Translations under genes and position numbers: made by a program
IMG/VR virus record: IMGVR_UViG_3300036931_000014
Coordinates: 1 to 33,402 of that record
DNA: 33,402 nucleotides
From: a virus
Reading direction: 5' to 3' (one strand)
The notes under the pieces: generated by a model
Told to the model about the DNA's origin: nothing
Databases searched by the model: none
The model's input: the letters and a program-made list of their open reading frames with translations, nothing else
Part shown: one piece after another, positions 4,962-24,706 of the stretch
How positions within the stretch are numbered: the stretch's first letter is position 1
How the letters are laid out: the number at the start of each line of letters is the position of its first letter

Positions 4962-5015
4962 ATTCTGGGCCACTGTGATAGGTTTCTTGACATTTTTCCC
5001 CGAAACCGTCAATAT
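4962..5015 (+). promoter_or_regulatory. promoter P3 of the phage promoter family (scaffold)
   Basis: Exact ATTCTGGGCC (4962-4971), TTCTTGAC (4984-4991) with -35 TTGACA (4987-4992), a 17-base T-rich spacer and a weak -10 CAATAT (5010-5015). Predicted start is near 5022, giving a leader of about 79 bases to the scaffold ATG. Bases 4948-5100 hold no gene. Confidence 0.75.
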
Positions 5016-5100
5016 TTCAATCCAAGTCGGCGCTCCTTCCGAACTGAACCCGGTGGGTCCTTTGGCGTCCGATACATCCAGCACGGGGTGCTAAACCAAC

Positions 5101-5943: not shown

Positions 5944-5977
5944 AACGGCGGTTCACCGTATGGGGGCCGCCGTTTTT
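5944..5977 (+). terminator. intrinsic terminator after scaffold
   Basis: AACGGCGG (5944-5951) pairs with CCGCCGTT (5967-5974) around a 15-base loop and runs into TTTTT (5973-5977). It should reduce transcription of the 45-residue gene and of the capsid gene from P3. Confidence 0.75.
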
Positions 5978-5993
5978 CTTTGGAGTAGAGCAC

Positions 5994-6131
5994 ATGGCAC
6001 TGACATCCATCGAAGCCGCCAAGCGCGGAACCGGCAAAGGAACCGGCAAGAAATCTAAGCCGGGAGCGGCGAAGCCCAGCAAATCCGGGGCACCGAAGCC
6101 GGCATCGAAACCGACAAAGAAGTCAAGATGA
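5994..6131 (+). CDS. small basic protein with capsid-like N-terminus, 45 aa
   Basis: The ATG at 5994 has TTGGAG at 5980-5985 and the gene ends at TGA 6129-6131. The first eleven residues, MALTSIEAAKR, closely match the start of the major capsid protein (MPMTLIEAAKR, positions 1-11), and the two genes share the 17 bases ATCGAAGCCGCCAAGCG. The rest is a low-complexity Lys/Pro/Ala/Ser/Gly tail with about 13 lysines and no hydrophobic core, so it is probably disordered and nucleic-acid binding. It lies between the scaffold terminator and the capsid promoter. A role as DNA-condensing or capsid-lumen protein is inference; it could also be a duplicated, degenerating capsid start. Confidence 0.65.
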   Translation: MALTSIEAAKRGTGKGTGKKSKPGAAKPSKSGAPKPASKPTKKSR

Positions 6132-6184
6132 TTCTGGGCCACTGTGTCAAGTTTCTTGACTTTTTTGGCTATCAATCTTAACAT
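6131..6184 (+). promoter_or_regulatory. promoter P4 of the phage promoter family (major capsid)
   Basis: Exact ATTCTGGGCC (6131-6140), TTCTTGAC (6153-6160) with -35 TTGACT (6156-6161), a 17-base spacer and -10 TAACAT (6179-6184). Predicted start is near 6191, with a leader of about 63 bases. The core is almost identical to P5, which drives the tail tube gene. Confidence 0.82.
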
Positions 6185-6253
6185 TCCAACAATAGAAGGT
6201 AAGCGGCGGGGTCGCTCCTTGAACCAAATCCGGTCAATCAGGAGTAGACCCAA

Positions 6254-7177
6254 ATGCCCATGACCCTCATCGAAGCCGCCAAGCGTAACTCGGCGGATGT
6301 CAAGCGCTCCGGCGTCATCGAGATGTTCGCGATGACGGCGCAGTTCCTCAACGTCCTGCCGTTCGAAGACATTCCGGGCGGCTCGCTCACCTACAACATC
6401 GAAGGCGAGATGCCCGGCGTGTCGTTCCGTGGCTTCAACGAAGGCTATTCGGAAAGCACCGGCGTCATCAACCCGGCGACGGAGCGTCTCTACATCGCTG
6501 GTGGCGATCTGGACGTGGACAAGGCGCTCATCAAGACGCGCGGCTACGCCATCCGTGGTTCGGAAGAGGCCGCGAAGGTCAAGGCCCTCGCGATGCACAT
6601 CTCGGACCGCCTCGTCAACGGCGACTCGGAGAGCAATCCCCGCGAGTTCGACGGCATCCGCAAACGCATCGTCGGCAGCCAACTTTTCACCGCGACCGGC
6701 ACGAACACGAACGGCGCACTGTCGCTGGAAGTTCTCGACGCCGCGATCGATCTCGTGGACTCGCCGACTGCCATCGTCCTGTCCAAGGCGCTCCGCCGCA
6801 AGCTGACGAAGGCCGCGCGCGGCAACGTCGGCGGCGACATCGCCTACCAGACCGACTCGTGGGGCCGTCAGGTCGCCACCTACAATGACCTGCCGCTGGT
6901 CATCGTGGACTACAACGAGAAGGGCCAGCGCGTCATCGACTACAATGAGTCCGGTCCTTCGGGCGACTCCGTGTGCCAGTCGATCTACGTCCTGTCGCTC
7001 GGCACGAACCGCGTGATGGGTCTCCAGAACGGGACCATCGAGGTCTCCGATCTGGGCGAACTTCAGGCTCTCCCCGTGTTCCGCACGCGCGTCGAGTGGC
7101 TGGTCGGCATGGCGGTCATGCATGGTCGCGCCGCCGCCCGCATCTGGGGCATCACGAACGCAGACGTGACGGAGTGA
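6254..7177 (+). CDS. major capsid protein, HK97-fold type, 307 aa
   Basis: It forms the icosahedral shell. The sequence follows a familiar alphaproteobacterial-phage capsid family: N-terminal helix (TLIEAAKRNSADVKRSGVIE), an LPFEDIPGGSLTYNIEGEMPGVSFRG segment split across strands, NEGYSESTGVINP, the GGDLDVDKALI region, and a long helix carrying SEEAAKVKALAMHISDRLVNGD. The C-terminal half has a P-domain-like pattern ending in GMAVMHGRAAARIWGI. The ATG at 6254 has AGGAG nine bases upstream; a second ATG two codons later is less likely. The separate scaffold gene and absence of a delta-domain suggest no HK97-style self-processing. The gene has its own promoter and terminator. Confidence 0.88.
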   Translation: MPMTLIEAAKRNSADVKRSGVIEMFAMTAQFLNVLPFEDIPGGSLTYNIEGEMPGVSFRGFNEGYSESTGVINPATERLYIAGGDLDVDKALIKTRGYAIRGSEEAAKVKALAMHISDRLVNGDSESNPREFDGIRKRIVGSQLFTATGTNTNGALSLEVLDAAIDLVDSPTAIVLSKALRRKLTKAARGNVGGDIAYQTDSWGRQVATYNDLPLVIVDYNEKGQRVIDYNESGPSGDSVCQSIYVLSLGTNRVMGLQNGTIEVSDLGELQALPVFRTRVEWLVGMAVMHGRAAARIWGITNADVTE

Positions 7178-12563: not shown

Positions 12564-12618
12564 ATTCTGGGCCGTGAGGGTCAATGTTCTTGACTTTTTC
12601 TGCTATTAATCTTAACAT
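12564..12618 (+). promoter_or_regulatory. promoter P5 of the phage promoter family (tail tube)
   Basis: Exact ATTCTGGGCC (12564-12573), TTCTTGAC (12587-12594) with -35 TTGACT (12590-12595), a 17-base spacer and -10 TAACAT (12613-12618). The stretch from -35 past -10 nearly repeats P4 of the capsid gene. Predicted start is near 12625, leaving a leader of about 59 bases. Confidence 0.82.
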
Positions 12619-12683
12619 TCGAGCAATATCTTAGGTATGACTTCTGCGGGGCAGGGTCGCCGTCACCAGTTAGGAGACCGCCC

Positions 12684-14510
12684 GTGTCCTTCTCAAATTC
12701 GAACCGCGCCAAGCTGGCCTACCTCGCCGAGACCGCGTGGGCTTCCACGCCGTCCAGCGGGTCGCCGCGCGAGATGCGCATCAAGACCTCCAAGCTGACG
12801 ATCAAGAAAGAAACCAAGATGTCCGACGAAATCCGTGCGGATCGCATGGTTTCGTCCATCATCGAGGTTGGTGCGGCTTCCGAAGGCGAGATCGACTTCG
12901 AGTTCTCGGCTGGCGCAATCGACGACTTCCTCGCCTCGTTCGTCTACGGCGCGTGGTCCCGTCCGCAGACCATGGACTTCTGGGAAGGCAACGTCGCCGT
13001 CACCAGCACGTCCAACATCACCATTTCGTCCACCACGGACTACAGCGGCTATCTGGTCGCCGGTCGCCGCATCAAGCTGGAGGGCTTCAATACCCCGGCG
13101 AACAACGGCTACTTCGAGATCAGCGCCGTCGCTTTCGCGGGCGGTCTCACGGCCGTGACCGTCGTCGGCACCGCGCTCGTCGTGGAAGTCGCCTCCGCCT
13201 CCACCAAGCTGTTCGATGCCAACGACGTGATCGTCCTGAACAACACGGCGATCCGCTTCGGCACCGCCGGTGCGTCCGCCATCGACTCGAATGGCACCAA
13301 CGCTTTTGCGTCCGCCATCGCTGCCGGCCAGATCAAGGTCGGTCAGAAGCTCTACGTTGACGGTCTCGGCTTCGATGTCGGAACCGTGACGTACACTGCC
13401 GCCGCCGCTGTCGGAGACACGGTGTCGGTCAACGACGGTGTGAAGCAGGTCACCTTCGAAGCCGGCGGCTCGACGGTTGCTGGTCACATCGAGTTCAACC
13501 CCGGCGCAGACGAGACGGCGACCGCCGCCGCGCTTGTTGTCGCCATCAGCGCCGCCTATGCGGCTGGCAAGATCAACGTCACTGCGAAGTCCGCCCTCGG
13601 CGTGCTGACGGTGGCGAACCTTCAGGCGACCGGCGGTCACCTGTCGAAGGTCGAAGCCGGCGCGCTCGCCACGGTCGTGGACTTCACGGGCGGCGACGAT
13701 ACCCTGCGTGGTGTGTTCACTGTCACCTCTGCGGCGGACGATGTTCTCGGCGTGTCGCCGGCTCCGAACACGAACGCCAATGGCGCGACGAAGAAGGTCA
13801 CCATCAAGGGCTCCATGCTCCGCAATCCGGCGCGTCCGCAGGATTTCGTGGAGCAGTCCTACACCATCGAAACGTCCTACGAGGACGTGAACCAGTATTT
13901 CGTCAACAAGGGCCTCCGCGTCGGTCAGTTCGAGTTGGACGTGCAGTCCCGCGAGATCGTCACCGGCAAGATACACTTCAAGGGCGAGTCGATGGCGCGT
14001 TCGCCGTCGCAGACCTCGAAGTTCGACAACGCGCCGTACACCGCCAAGGTCTCGACTCCCGGTCAGATCATGTCGGCGACTACCAACGTGGGCAACATCG
14101 AGAAGAACGGCGTCCCGCTCGCAACGGCCATCAAGTCGATCACGATCAACGGCGACGCTGCGCTGCGTGAGCAGCAGGCGGTCGGTCACAAGTTCCCGGT
14201 CGGCATCGGCGTGGGCCGCTTCAAGCTGACGGGCAAGTTCGATGCGTACTTCGAGACGGGCGAAATGTTCGACCATTTCCTCGCGCACGATACCGTGTCG
14301 CTGTCGTGGTACTTCAAGGACCTCGACAACCAGCGATACGATGTCACCCTTCCCGCCATAAAATTGACGGAGGACCCGCTGTCTCCCGGCGGAATCGACC
14401 AAGACGTGATGGAGTCCATCTCGTGGGAAGCCCAGCGCGACCCGGCGACCAACTCCATCATCCAGTTCGACCGCTTCTCCTCGGTATTGGCTCCGGCGAA
14501 CGCCGCCTGA
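12684..14510 (+). CDS. major tail tube protein with large internal insertion, 608 aa
   Basis: It polymerises into the tail tube. The GTG start has TAGGAG seven bases upstream. Tube-like sequence is split: residues about 1-105 (RAKLAYLAETAWASTPSSG, IEVGAASEGEIDFEFSAGAI) and about 365-600 (VTIKGSMLRNPARPQDF, then SYTIETSYEDVNQYFVN, then SMARSPSQTSKFDNAPY). Between them are roughly 250 residues of Ala/Val/Thr/Gly-rich beta modules, including SGYLVAGRRIKLEGF and GDTVSVNDGVKQVTFEAGG, which are likely displayed on the tube outside. Tube proteins are usually a third to half this size. Own promoter P5 fits the high copy number needed. Confidence 0.78.
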   Translation: MSFSNSNRAKLAYLAETAWASTPSSGSPREMRIKTSKLTIKKETKMSDEIRADRMVSSIIEVGAASEGEIDFEFSAGAIDDFLASFVYGAWSRPQTMDFWEGNVAVTSTSNITISSTTDYSGYLVAGRRIKLEGFNTPANNGYFEISAVAFAGGLTAVTVVGTALVVEVASASTKLFDANDVIVLNNTAIRFGTAGASAIDSNGTNAFASAIAAGQIKVGQKLYVDGLGFDVGTVTYTAAAAVGDTVSVNDGVKQVTFEAGGSTVAGHIEFNPGADETATAAALVVAISAAYAAGKINVTAKSALGVLTVANLQATGGHLSKVEAGALATVVDFTGGDDTLRGVFTVTSAADDVLGVSPAPNTNANGATKKVTIKGSMLRNPARPQDFVEQSYTIETSYEDVNQYFVNKGLRVGQFELDVQSREIVTGKIHFKGESMARSPSQTSKFDNAPYTAKVSTPGQIMSATTNVGNIEKNGVPLATAIKSITINGDAALREQQAVGHKFPVGIGVGRFKLTGKFDAYFETGEMFDHFLAHDTVSLSWYFKDLDNQRYDVTLPAIKLTEDPLSPGGIDQDVMESISWEAQRDPATNSIIQFDRFSSVLAPANAA

Positions 14511-14515
14511 GTCTG

Positions 14516-15061
14516 ATGGACACATCCCGACCTGAAGTTGTGGCCGCAACAGGCGAGAGACCGGAGTCGGGCCGGGCTCTCGCCACCCTCTTCAAGACCT
14601 GTTCGCGGTGTAAGCAGGAACAAGCCGTCACCGACTTTCATCTGAAAGATGGAGGGCCACGAATCCATTCATGGTGCAAGTCGTGCAAGTTGGAAGCCTC
14701 TCGTGAGCATCGTGGCAAGCGGTATCAGGCGGAGATCACCTACGGAATTCTCGCCAACGCGCGCTCTCGCGCACGGCGTCTAAAACTTCCGTTCGATCTG
14801 ACGGAAGAAGACATCATCGTCCCGGACACCTGTCCTGTCCTTGGTATCCCCATCTTCAGGACTCCCGGAAAGAGGAGTGCAAATTCTCCCTCGCTTGATC
14901 GGCTCAATCCGTCAGCCGGTTATGTGCGCGGGAACGTCGCAGTGATCTCGGACAAGGCAAACCGGATCAAGACTGATGCGACGGCACAAGAGCTTCAGAT
15001 GGTCGCCACATGGGTGGTGGCATTTGAGGAAACCCCGACCACCAGTGCGTCAGAGGTTTGA
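14516..15061 (+). CDS. HNH-type homing endonuclease (recombination endonuclease VII-like), 181 aa
   Basis: A two-CxxC zinc-binding unit (C29-C32 and C54-C57, TCSRCK and WCKSCK) is followed by a helical linker and by CPVLGIPI (106-113) and SLDRLNPSAGYVRGNVAVIS (126-145), a signature of HNH endonucleases found as free-standing mobile genes in phages. It lies between tail tube and chaperone genes and is probably not structural. Base composition is visibly less GC-rich than the neighbours. The ATG at 14516 lacks a good Shine-Dalgarno sequence, so the start is uncertain. Confidence 0.75.
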   Translation: MDTSRPEVVAATGERPESGRALATLFKTCSRCKQEQAVTDFHLKDGGPRIHSWCKSCKLEASREHRGKRYQAEITYGILANARSRARRLKLPFDLTEEDIIVPDTCPVLGIPIFRTPGKRSANSPSLDRLNPSAGYVRGNVAVISDKANRIKTDATAQELQMVATWVVAFEETPTTSASEV

Positions 15062-22920: not shown

Positions 22921-24231
22921 ATGCGTAACGTCAACGACACACTATTCAACAAGCTTCGCAGCCGGGTGTCGAACTTTGTCACCTGCTGGAAAGTTGTGCG
23001 CGTTGACGGTGTGACGTTCGGCTTCACCTCGCACGACCGCGAGTTCATCTACGACGGAGTGACCTACTCGCCGGAGAACGGAATCGCCACCGACGCGACC
23101 GTCATGAAGGGTGACTTCTCCACCGGAAACACGGCGGCGAAGGTCATCTTCAGCCAAGGCATCACGGAGCACGATGTCAAAGGCGGACTGTTCGACTACG
23201 CCGAGGTCTATTCGTTCTGGATCGATCCCTACGACTTGACGCACGGCATAATCAAAATCTCGCGCGGCAACATGGGCGAGATCACGGCGATAAATGGCAC
23301 GTTCACCTCCGAGATGCGTGCGATGCTGGACCGCCTCCAGCTTCCGTTCGGGACGCAATATAATTTGGAATGCAACGCCAAGCTTGGCGACAACCAGTGC
23401 GGCGTGCCGATTGCACCGCCGGTATGGGCAACGGCGACGACTCACGTTGCTCATGTTGGTGGCGATGCGCGCATCGGCGGCGTCGTGCGCCCGACCGTCT
23501 ACAACGGCTTCTGGTACAAGTGCATCTCCGGCGCACATTCGACGACGCTGAACTTCAACCATGGCGTTTCCTACGGCGGGCTCGGCGCGGACATCTTCTC
23601 CGGCACCGGCATCAATCCGTTCTCCGGCTCCGGCTTCGGCTACCTCGGTCCGGCGTTCGCCGCTTTATTCACGGCGCAGATGGCTGCCTACAATCCGCCG
23701 GGCGTCCTGAACATCACATCGATCCCGGTCACCGGCGGCGCGACCGGCGGCACCGAACCTGTGTGGCCCACCGTCCTCGGTGCCACCATCGTCGATGGCG
23801 AACTGACGTGGCAGGCAATTGACGCCATGATCGTCAACGGGTCGGTCACCGGCGTGTTCGACCGGATGCAGTTTCAGGACTCCAGCCGAACCGAACCGGG
23901 CCAGACCTTCCAGTACGGATGGATCAAATGGCTGACCGGGCACAACGCCAGCCGTGTCGTCGAAATCCGCAGCCACGTCGCCGGTCCGCCGGCTGCTTTC
24001 GTCATGCTCGAAGTCATGCCCTATCCGATCACCAAGGGCGATACCTATCAAATCTCGTGGGGCTGCGGAAAGACGCGCGCCTCGTGCGTGAACAAGTTCG
24101 ACAACATGTTGAACTTCCGTGGCTTCCCCGACATGCCCACCGAAGATCGCGCGCTGGCGACACCGAACTTCTCGACGGCGAATCAGGATTACGCGGATTG
24201 GACCGATCACTCCGGAGGTGGAAAAAAGTAA
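22921..24231 (+). CDS. tail hub protein, DUF2163/BR0599-like, 436 aa
   Basis: N-terminal residues 1-163 match DUF2163 (CWKVVRVDGVTFGFTSHDR, FSTGNTAAKVIF, RGNMGEI, LDRLQLPFGTQYNLECNAKLGDNQCGV), and the C-terminus (about 305-410) matches the BR0599 end (WGCGKTRASCVNKFDNMLN, FRGFPDMP). These regions form the hub of gene-transfer-agent and phage tails. Cysteines 151, 160, 382 and 389 could together bind an iron-sulphur cluster, as in tail proteins such as lambda gpL. Residues about 164-300 are an inserted Gly-rich module (NGFWYKCISGAH, then GGTEPVWPTVLGATIVDGEL). The HNH gene follows. Confidence 0.8.
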   Translation: MRNVNDTLFNKLRSRVSNFVTCWKVVRVDGVTFGFTSHDREFIYDGVTYSPENGIATDATVMKGDFSTGNTAAKVIFSQGITEHDVKGGLFDYAEVYSFWIDPYDLTHGIIKISRGNMGEITAINGTFTSEMRAMLDRLQLPFGTQYNLECNAKLGDNQCGVPIAPPVWATATTHVAHVGGDARIGGVVRPTVYNGFWYKCISGAHSTTLNFNHGVSYGGLGADIFSGTGINPFSGSGFGYLGPAFAALFTAQMAAYNPPGVLNITSIPVTGGATGGTEPVWPTVLGATIVDGELTWQAIDAMIVNGSVTGVFDRMQFQDSSRTEPGQTFQYGWIKWLTGHNASRVVEIRSHVAGPPAAFVMLEVMPYPITKGDTYQISWGCGKTRASCVNKFDNMLNFRGFPDMPTEDRALATPNFSTANQDYADWTDHSGGGKK

Positions 24232-24232
24232 G

Positions 24233-24706
24233 ATGTATTCTCCCTCCCAAATTGCACGGTTCTGGTCGCATGTGGACTCCTCTGGTGGTCCTGATTCTTG
24301 CTGGCCGTGGTTGCTAGGAACCTGCAAGGACGGCTACGGGAAGACAAAGATCGGTGGAAAATCTCTGCGATCAAATCGTGTTGCTCTTGAGATTTATTGT
24401 GACGAACCGCTTGGTGAGTTGGCGGCACTACACTCTTGTGACAACCCAATCTGCTGTAATCCACATCACCTCTTTTCTGGGACGAACGCGGGAAACATGA
24501 CCGACAAGACGATCAAAGGAAGGCAGTCAAAAGGCGAGACACATGGTCGCGCGCTGCTGACACATGAGATCGTGAAATTGGTCCGCGAGCGTTTTGTCCC
24601 GCGTCACAACACCAACGGCATCAGTGCGATGTCGAGAGAGTTTGGCGTATCTCGCACGACGATGAACTATGCGGTCCATGGTGTGAATTGGCGGGAGGCA
24701 GCATGA
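24233..24706 (+). CDS. HNH homing endonuclease, 157 aa
   Basis: The classic HNH core is ALHSCDNPICCNPHHLF (about 65-81) with following GTNAGNMTDKTIKGRQ. The N-terminal part (CWPWLLGTCKDGYGKTK) is also usual. The C-terminal 50 residues carry a helix-turn-helix-like DNA-binding unit (ISAMSREFGVSRTTMNYAV). The gene is markedly less GC-rich than its neighbours and separates two tail-tip genes that are adjacent in related phages and gene transfer agents. It starts one base after the hub stop, with GGAGG upstream, and ends overlapping the next ATG, so it does not break operon translation. Confidence 0.85.
   Translation: MYSPSQIARFWSHVDSSGGPDSCWPWLLGTCKDGYGKTKIGGKSLRSNRVALEIYCDEPLGELAALHSCDNPICCNPHHLFSGTNAGNMTDKTIKGRQSKGETHGRALLTHEIVKLVRERFVPRHNTNGISAMSREFGVSRTTMNYAVHGVNWREAA

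Follow-up and report, generated by a model that had tools for sequence, protein, structure and literature searches.

The window analysed here, which is the whole of a 33.4-kb virus record, carries between its scaffold and major capsid protein (MCP) genes a small gene that joins a copy of the start of the phage's own MCP to a lysine-rich tail. Comparison with related phages indicates that this mini-gene is a real, conserved gene, and the existence of a wider gene family of this kind is well supported. Our leading reading, to which we give slightly less than even credence, is that the product is a small polycation, probably encapsidated, which gains entry to the procapsid by mimicking the MCP arm, a mechanism that we infer from better-studied phages.

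The first-pass annotation of this DNA had proposed a small gene between scaffold and capsid whose start matches that of the MCP, and the gene was confirmed. Its product of 45 residues is MALTSIEAAKRGTGKGTGKKSKPGAAKPSKSGAPKPASKPTKKSR, and its first eleven residues, MALTSIEAAKR, are identical to the MCP start, MPMTLIEAAKR, at 8 of 11 positions. The tail, described earlier as rich in Lys, Pro and Ala, is indeed so and is rich in Gly as well; the whole protein contains 11 Lys, 2 Arg and one acidic residue, which is the Glu of the arm. A good Shine-Dalgarno sequence had also been claimed and is present as GGAG, 8 bases ahead of the ATG, and the gene lies, as described, behind a strong terminator-like hairpin followed by a U tract (Table 1).

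Table 1. Features of the window in and around the mini-gene.
Feature	Position	Strand	Basis
Head scaffolding protein, 267 aa	5101..5904	+	phrog_206, E 6e-33
Terminator-like hairpin and U tract, gap between scaffold and mini-gene	5944..5981	+	-26.1 kcal/mol, z -5.6
Shine-Dalgarno GGAG of mini-gene	5982..5985	+	sequence; GGAG/GGAGG also in L001, L003
Mini-gene, 45 aa	5994..6131	+	sequence; homologues L001:372 (38 aa), L003:426 (37 aa)
Copy of MCP arm, MALTSIEAAKR, predicted helix at residues 5-12	5994..6026	+	sequence and model
Lys/Pro/Ala/Gly-rich tail, zero acidic residues, predicted to lack regular structure	6027..6128	+	composition and model
Short hairpin, then T6, gap between mini-gene and MCP	6146..6166	+	sequence and folding
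Sigma-70-like promoter of MCP, TTGACT-17-TAACAT	6156..6184	+	same block before MCP in L001, L003, and at window 12.59-12.62 kb
MCP, 307 aa	6254..7177	+	phrog_212, E 7e-80; Pfam GP7, E 6e-13; predicted HK97-type fold
Start of MCP N-arm, MPMTLIEAAKR, predicted helix at residues 5-11	6254..6286	+	sequence and model

The match extends to the DNA. A run of 18 consecutive bases, CATCGAAGCCGCCAAGCG, is common to the starts of the mini-gene and the MCP gene; the run had been noticed before but was counted as 17. The repeat formed by the two starts (family D18) reaches 80% over 35 nt. Among 1,307 ORF starts in the window, that of the mini-gene is the best match to the MCP arm (p 0.015 against 200 shuffled MCP arms), and the same test restricted to basic ORFs gave p 0.010. 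Taken alone, the 18 shared bases argue only weakly for recent copying, because the mini-genes of relatives differ synonymously from their MCP genes at these codons. These synonymous differences led us to reject recent DNA duplication as the only cause.

The arm copy, whose retention in related phages had been posed as a question by the first-pass annotation, persists in the three phages most closely related by MCP (L001, L002 and L003; MCP 82-83% identical by alignment). All three carry the mini-gene directly after the scaffold gene. L001 and L002 encode an identical mini-protein, MPMSSIEASKRGKGAAKPTKAPKVGTPAKPAKKSKKKK, and L003 encodes MPLTSIEASKLGGKSGGKTTKSPKVKPPAKKKPSKKK. Although other genes, some 3.5 kb in all (about), separate mini-gene from MCP in these phages, the mini-gene stays with the scaffold. 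Terminator-like hairpins of unrelated sequence occupy the same place before the mini-gene in L001 (-20.3) and L003 (-19.2). Compared with one another, the three distinct copies of the arm (window, L001/L002 and L003) show 3-4 synonymous and 3-4 non-synonymous differences per ten codons; compared with its own MCP, each shows 2-4 synonymous and 3 non-synonymous differences of ten. Residues S5, I6, E7, A8 and K10 are invariant among the three copies, and the tails keep their make-up but not their sequence. The gene, its conservation, the arm mimicry and the charge can all be read from these sequences.

It had been expected that the ORF would not be missing or broken where scaffold and capsid are kept. 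This held for the nearest relatives but not at about 60% MCP identity, where the scaffold adjoins the MCP and the mini-gene is absent. Because these phages and most members of the MCP family do without it, the mini-gene is, judged by its distribution, accessory and not essential. Genome-wide scans found no mini-gene in Lacusarx, CcrRogue, Mesorhizobium and Microcystis phages, G007, G008 or G009, and eight more distant annotated phages had none within 6 kb of the MCP. Searches by tblastn of phage records with the 45-residue protein and with a protein from another branch (L148) returned zero matches even at E 10, a result that low-complexity filtering deprives of information, and a back-translated motif covering residues 6-16 found no match in viral contigs. 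Looser motifs recovered the three relatives and, among 16 matches, one further contig (L061); the final motif added unrelated ORFs only. A scaffold scan for relatives found none. At E up to 10, PHROG and NCBIfam had no match for the window, L001, L003, L148 or L123 proteins, and Pfam had none for those of the window, L001 and L003. In a literature search of partial coverage, no paper describing a protein of this kind came up.

Proteins of the same design occur in other branches of the MCP family. The first 16 residues of each ORF of 25-150 codons were set against the MCP arm found in its own locus, over 94 non-redundant MCP loci and 3,785 ORFs. Three ORFs scored at least 26, and all three are Lys-rich, against a background of 1% of ORFs. 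L148 has a standalone 34-residue ORF, MAAVTLLQAANCPMPKVKQGKKKSVKIPSTKKSK, 2 kb past the start of its MCP gene; its MCP begins MAAVTLLQASEMA, and nine residues of the mini-protein equal this arm. Over the nine codons after the start, the two L148 genes have 1 codon the same, 7 that differ synonymously and 1 that differs non-synonymously, a pattern that points to constraint at the protein level and that we count in favor of the encapsidated polycation. The L061 contig, found by motif alone, carries a standalone gene, MALTSMEASKTRMGMSQKAKKKNPRKLKLKSKKPKKGLAPQKAPIAMY, near lysis genes; an MCP was searched for on this contig and none was found. Its tetranucleotide profile correlates with that of an MCP contig from the same metagenome, L092, at r 0.94 (other pairs, 0.57-0.87), and profile and GC together suggest that the two contigs, whose ends do not overlap, belong to one phage.

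Overall, the mini-proteins are 34-48 residues long, with a net charge of +9 to +14 and zero Asp. Each has one Glu, that of the arm, except in L148, where the arm has Gln and Glu is absent. Lys is far above Arg, even though the window is 61% GC. When each mini-protein was scored against 61 distinct arms, that of its own MCP came first or shared first place; in L115 and the isolate XM05 the tie is broad, so that the arm there is only generic. Leu5 is invariant in the MCP and is replaced by Ser or Ala in all mini-proteins except that of L148, so the mini-protein arm may differ from the MCP arm in what it binds or how. In CcrColossus, a second MCP-like gene (G025:C1:17501-18280) is 44% identical, with a match that begins at residue 25 and so leaves out the arm. 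In L182 (G013), on the minus strand from reverse-complement base 1569, an 86-residue basic ORF, MTLAEASKLNWQ..., lies in another frame of a long ORF far from the MCP and matches the arm of the phage's MCP, MAITLVEASKLN, with p 0.010. It is possibly a further nested case of the kind described below, but was set aside as a family member since its product is long and less basic.

In several phages the arm-plus-tail ORF is nested within another gene. These ORFs, of 34-42 residues, were found in L114, L115, L123/L124/G018, L125, L127 and XM05 (an Erythrobacter phage; L232:10429-10539), the last of which has no CDS annotated for it. The host gene is in most cases the second gene after the MCP, read in the +1 frame, and in L114 it is one gene further on. 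One example is MPRATLTAHEASKLPTPRSSKPKLKPAPKPSKKPPKKTTR, from a phage whose MCP starts MLTLHEASKL. A separate test was needed for this group because Glu/Ala-rich DNA read in the +1 frame is Lys/Pro-rich. When the host gene was shuffled among synonymous codons, the observed arm score was reached with p 0.003, 0.007, 0.023 and 0.007, values that are non-independent since the cases are related. Between L163 (the L125 phage) and L127, 38 of 57 changes in the flanks fall at the third codon position of the host gene, whereas in the overlap the third position of nested-frame codons takes 9 of 15 (Fisher p 0.0017 versus flanks); the overlap contains 5 changes to the nested protein and 11 to the host protein. 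This comparison rests mainly on one pair, and two closer pairs lean likewise. The substitution pattern fits a translated nested gene under selection on its own frame.

The nested group, and this group only, might instead reflect chance, with a Lys/Pro-rich +1 reading of Glu/Ala-rich DNA in which the EA-S/G-K motif is accidental. The host gene is Glu/Ala-rich at the overlap, the motif is short, and the arm-only shuffled test, applied genome-wide, was non-significant in some cases (L114, p 0.26; G015, p 0.80). We nevertheless consider chance improbable, given the shift in substitution phase, the synonymous-shuffle values, an upstream AAGGAA conserved in 4 of 5 aligned cases, and other homologues of the host gene in which a Lys-rich +1 ORF occurs without the motif. 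Standalone and nested forms may represent a widespread, unnoticed class, in which a copy of the phage's own MCP arm is joined to a Lys tail, tracks the MCP, changes genome position, is sometimes overprinted on another structural gene and supplies packaged counter-ions; we regard this broader claim as more doubtful than the leading reading of the mini-protein itself.

Structural models are consistent with the arm match. The AlphaFold2 model of the MCP, built from 36 sequences, has a mean pLDDT of 81, and its first helix spans residues 5-11, in residue blocks with pLDDT 83-84. That of the mini-protein, of low confidence overall, has a sole helix at residues 5-12, with no regular structure in the rest; its first ten residues have a mean pLDDT of 78. 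Foldseek and VIA comparisons left MCP residues 1-13 unaligned in homologues, so that the place of the arm in the shell is unreadable from them, and the MCP has no sequence match among solved structures. By VIA, the structures nearest to the MCP model are those of family 2 encapsulins (Z about 21, rmsd about 3); phage capsid proteins score Z 18 or less.

Docking of the arm on the scaffold, and carriage of the tail into the head, are suggested by precedents. In SPP1, it is the N-terminal helix alpha1* of the MCP that the scaffold binds, and this helix unfolds into the N-arm on scaffold exit (PMC6813328). The C-terminal helix of the 80alpha scaffold touches the N-arm helix of the MCP (PMC5644958), and in P22 a scaffold hook touches the coat N-arm (PMC12005531). 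T4 gathers its internal proteins into the scaffold core by means of a capsid targeting sequence common to their N-termini, and the basic residues of these proteins that are seen in contact with DNA phosphate are lysines (PMC3012670). By analogy, if the mini-gene is translated, the first 11 or so residues would form the short helix with which the phage's own MCP begins. This helix would bind the assembly partner of the MCP arm, most likely the scaffolding protein, which is a likelier partner than a shell contact because the copied helix touches the procapsid scaffold in better-studied phages. Many copies of a Lys-rich tail of 25-35 residues would thereby enter the procapsid, where the tail would contact DNA, either neutralizing it as it comes in or traveling with it. 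The interpretation offered by the first-pass annotation, a protein that could use the assembly contact of the capsid to bring charge into the shell or else act on DNA, is partly supported. Weighing against the proposed mechanism are the shortness of the arm, the absence of the gene from most family members and the non-significant arm p values among the nested cases.

The same mimicry, and the same docking, would serve an assembly regulator, which is the main rival of the encapsidated polycation. Such a protein would compete with the MCP for the arm's site on scaffold or shell, would tune nucleation, size or scaffold release, and would be absent from the virion. SaPI1 CpmB offers a precedent, as it shares the capsid-binding motif of the scaffold, competes for the site and redirects capsid size (PMC5644958). 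The mini-protein is also probably made in lower amounts, because its gene lies behind the post-scaffold hairpin while the MCP has a promoter of its own. The regulator leaves unexplained why every copy has a Lys-rich, acid-free tail, and we judge it unlikely.

That tail, highly basic and of low complexity, could be at home in a DNA-binding or other cytoplasmic protein (histone-like, antirestriction, or a decoy for a host sensor of the MCP) whose arm serves another purpose, and the patchy, accessory distribution agrees with this. A purely DNA-binding role, however, does not explain arms that follow each phage's own MCP, and a decoy role does not explain the tail, which leaves these possibilities somewhat less probable still. 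A non-functional remnant, left when the start of the MCP gene was partially duplicated, would account for the 18 identical bases and the similar ribosome-binding region. We give this very little weight, as the gene is open and in place, with arm and tail character kept in three lineages despite many synonymous changes, and is present at other positions in other branches.

The encapsidated polycation can be set beside several known systems. The mini-proteins resemble the T4 internal proteins IPI-IPIII in being small, with an N-terminal targeting segment, here putative, into the scaffolding core, and with lysines, which in T4 contact packaged DNA and may do so here (PMC3012670). No sequence relation between the two is visible, and the mini-proteins differ in their length of 34-48 residues and in tails that are nearly all Lys, Pro, Ala, Gly and Ser. 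The mini-protein does have an N-terminal segment in common with another head protein, the MCP, though only in a loose sense of such sharing. In T4, the prohead protease cuts off the targeting sequence, which is not known to be a copy of the MCP arm. CpmB is likewise a small protein that reuses another protein's capsid-assembly motif at the same contact, but that motif is the C-terminal one of the scaffold and is satellite-encoded, whereas the mini-protein uses the N-terminal arm of the MCP and is phage-encoded (PMC5644958). CpmB-like size determinants combine the scaffold motif with a dimerization domain; the arm of the mini-protein matches the MCP, and its tail is not predicted to form a domain. 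Membership in either group is not supported; the working principle resembles both.

SaPIbov5 Ccm is a second, capsid-related protein that alters assembly (PMC8569155); it is described there as a homologue of the whole capsid protein, whereas the mini-proteins share the first 9-11 residues only. A paralogue of the MCP is not indicated for the mini-protein, which has no HK97-fold domain (45 residues, one predicted helix) and no phrog_212 match. Nor did a histone-like or H1-like assignment find a Pfam match at E up to 10, in HMM searches that are insensitive for such tails. Encapsulin cargo-loading peptides, which bind the shell and usually lie at the C-terminus of the cargo, also guide a protein into an HK97-fold shell by a short peptide, and the MCP model is nearest to family 2 of these shells; the peptide of the mini-protein, in contrast, copies the shell protein. 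The use of the MCP's own arm, together with recurrence at different genome positions, once overprinted, appears new.

Outside T4, little is settled about how proteins are chosen for the procapsid, or about whether small tailed phages supply packaged counter-ions for their own DNA. If the proposed mechanism is true, the first 10 or so residues of the MCP would be a transferable entry tag, and the natural mini-protein/MCP pairs make this idea directly testable. Annotation misses such genes because they have fewer than 50 codons, are of low complexity and are sometimes hidden in another frame.

The surrounding DNA has features of its own. The promoter block TTGACTTTTTTTGCTATTAATCTTAACATT precedes both the MCP gene (6146-6194) and a phrog_290 tail protein gene at 12.68 kb (12580-12628), with a looser copy before the scaffold gene (4987-5016), and is kept 5' of the MCP in L001 and L003; these blocks are probably the late promoters of the window phage. 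Two HNH-endonuclease-like ORFs (14306-15061 and 24119-24706; by eye) lie amid the tail genes of the window. In the relatives, the interval from mini-gene to MCP holds cargo (L001:489-4000, L003:540-4000), including a similar glycosyltransferase-like gene in both and an HNH-like gene in L003 (each by eye), and in PaMx28 (L260), too, additional genes separate the scaffold gene from that of the MCP.
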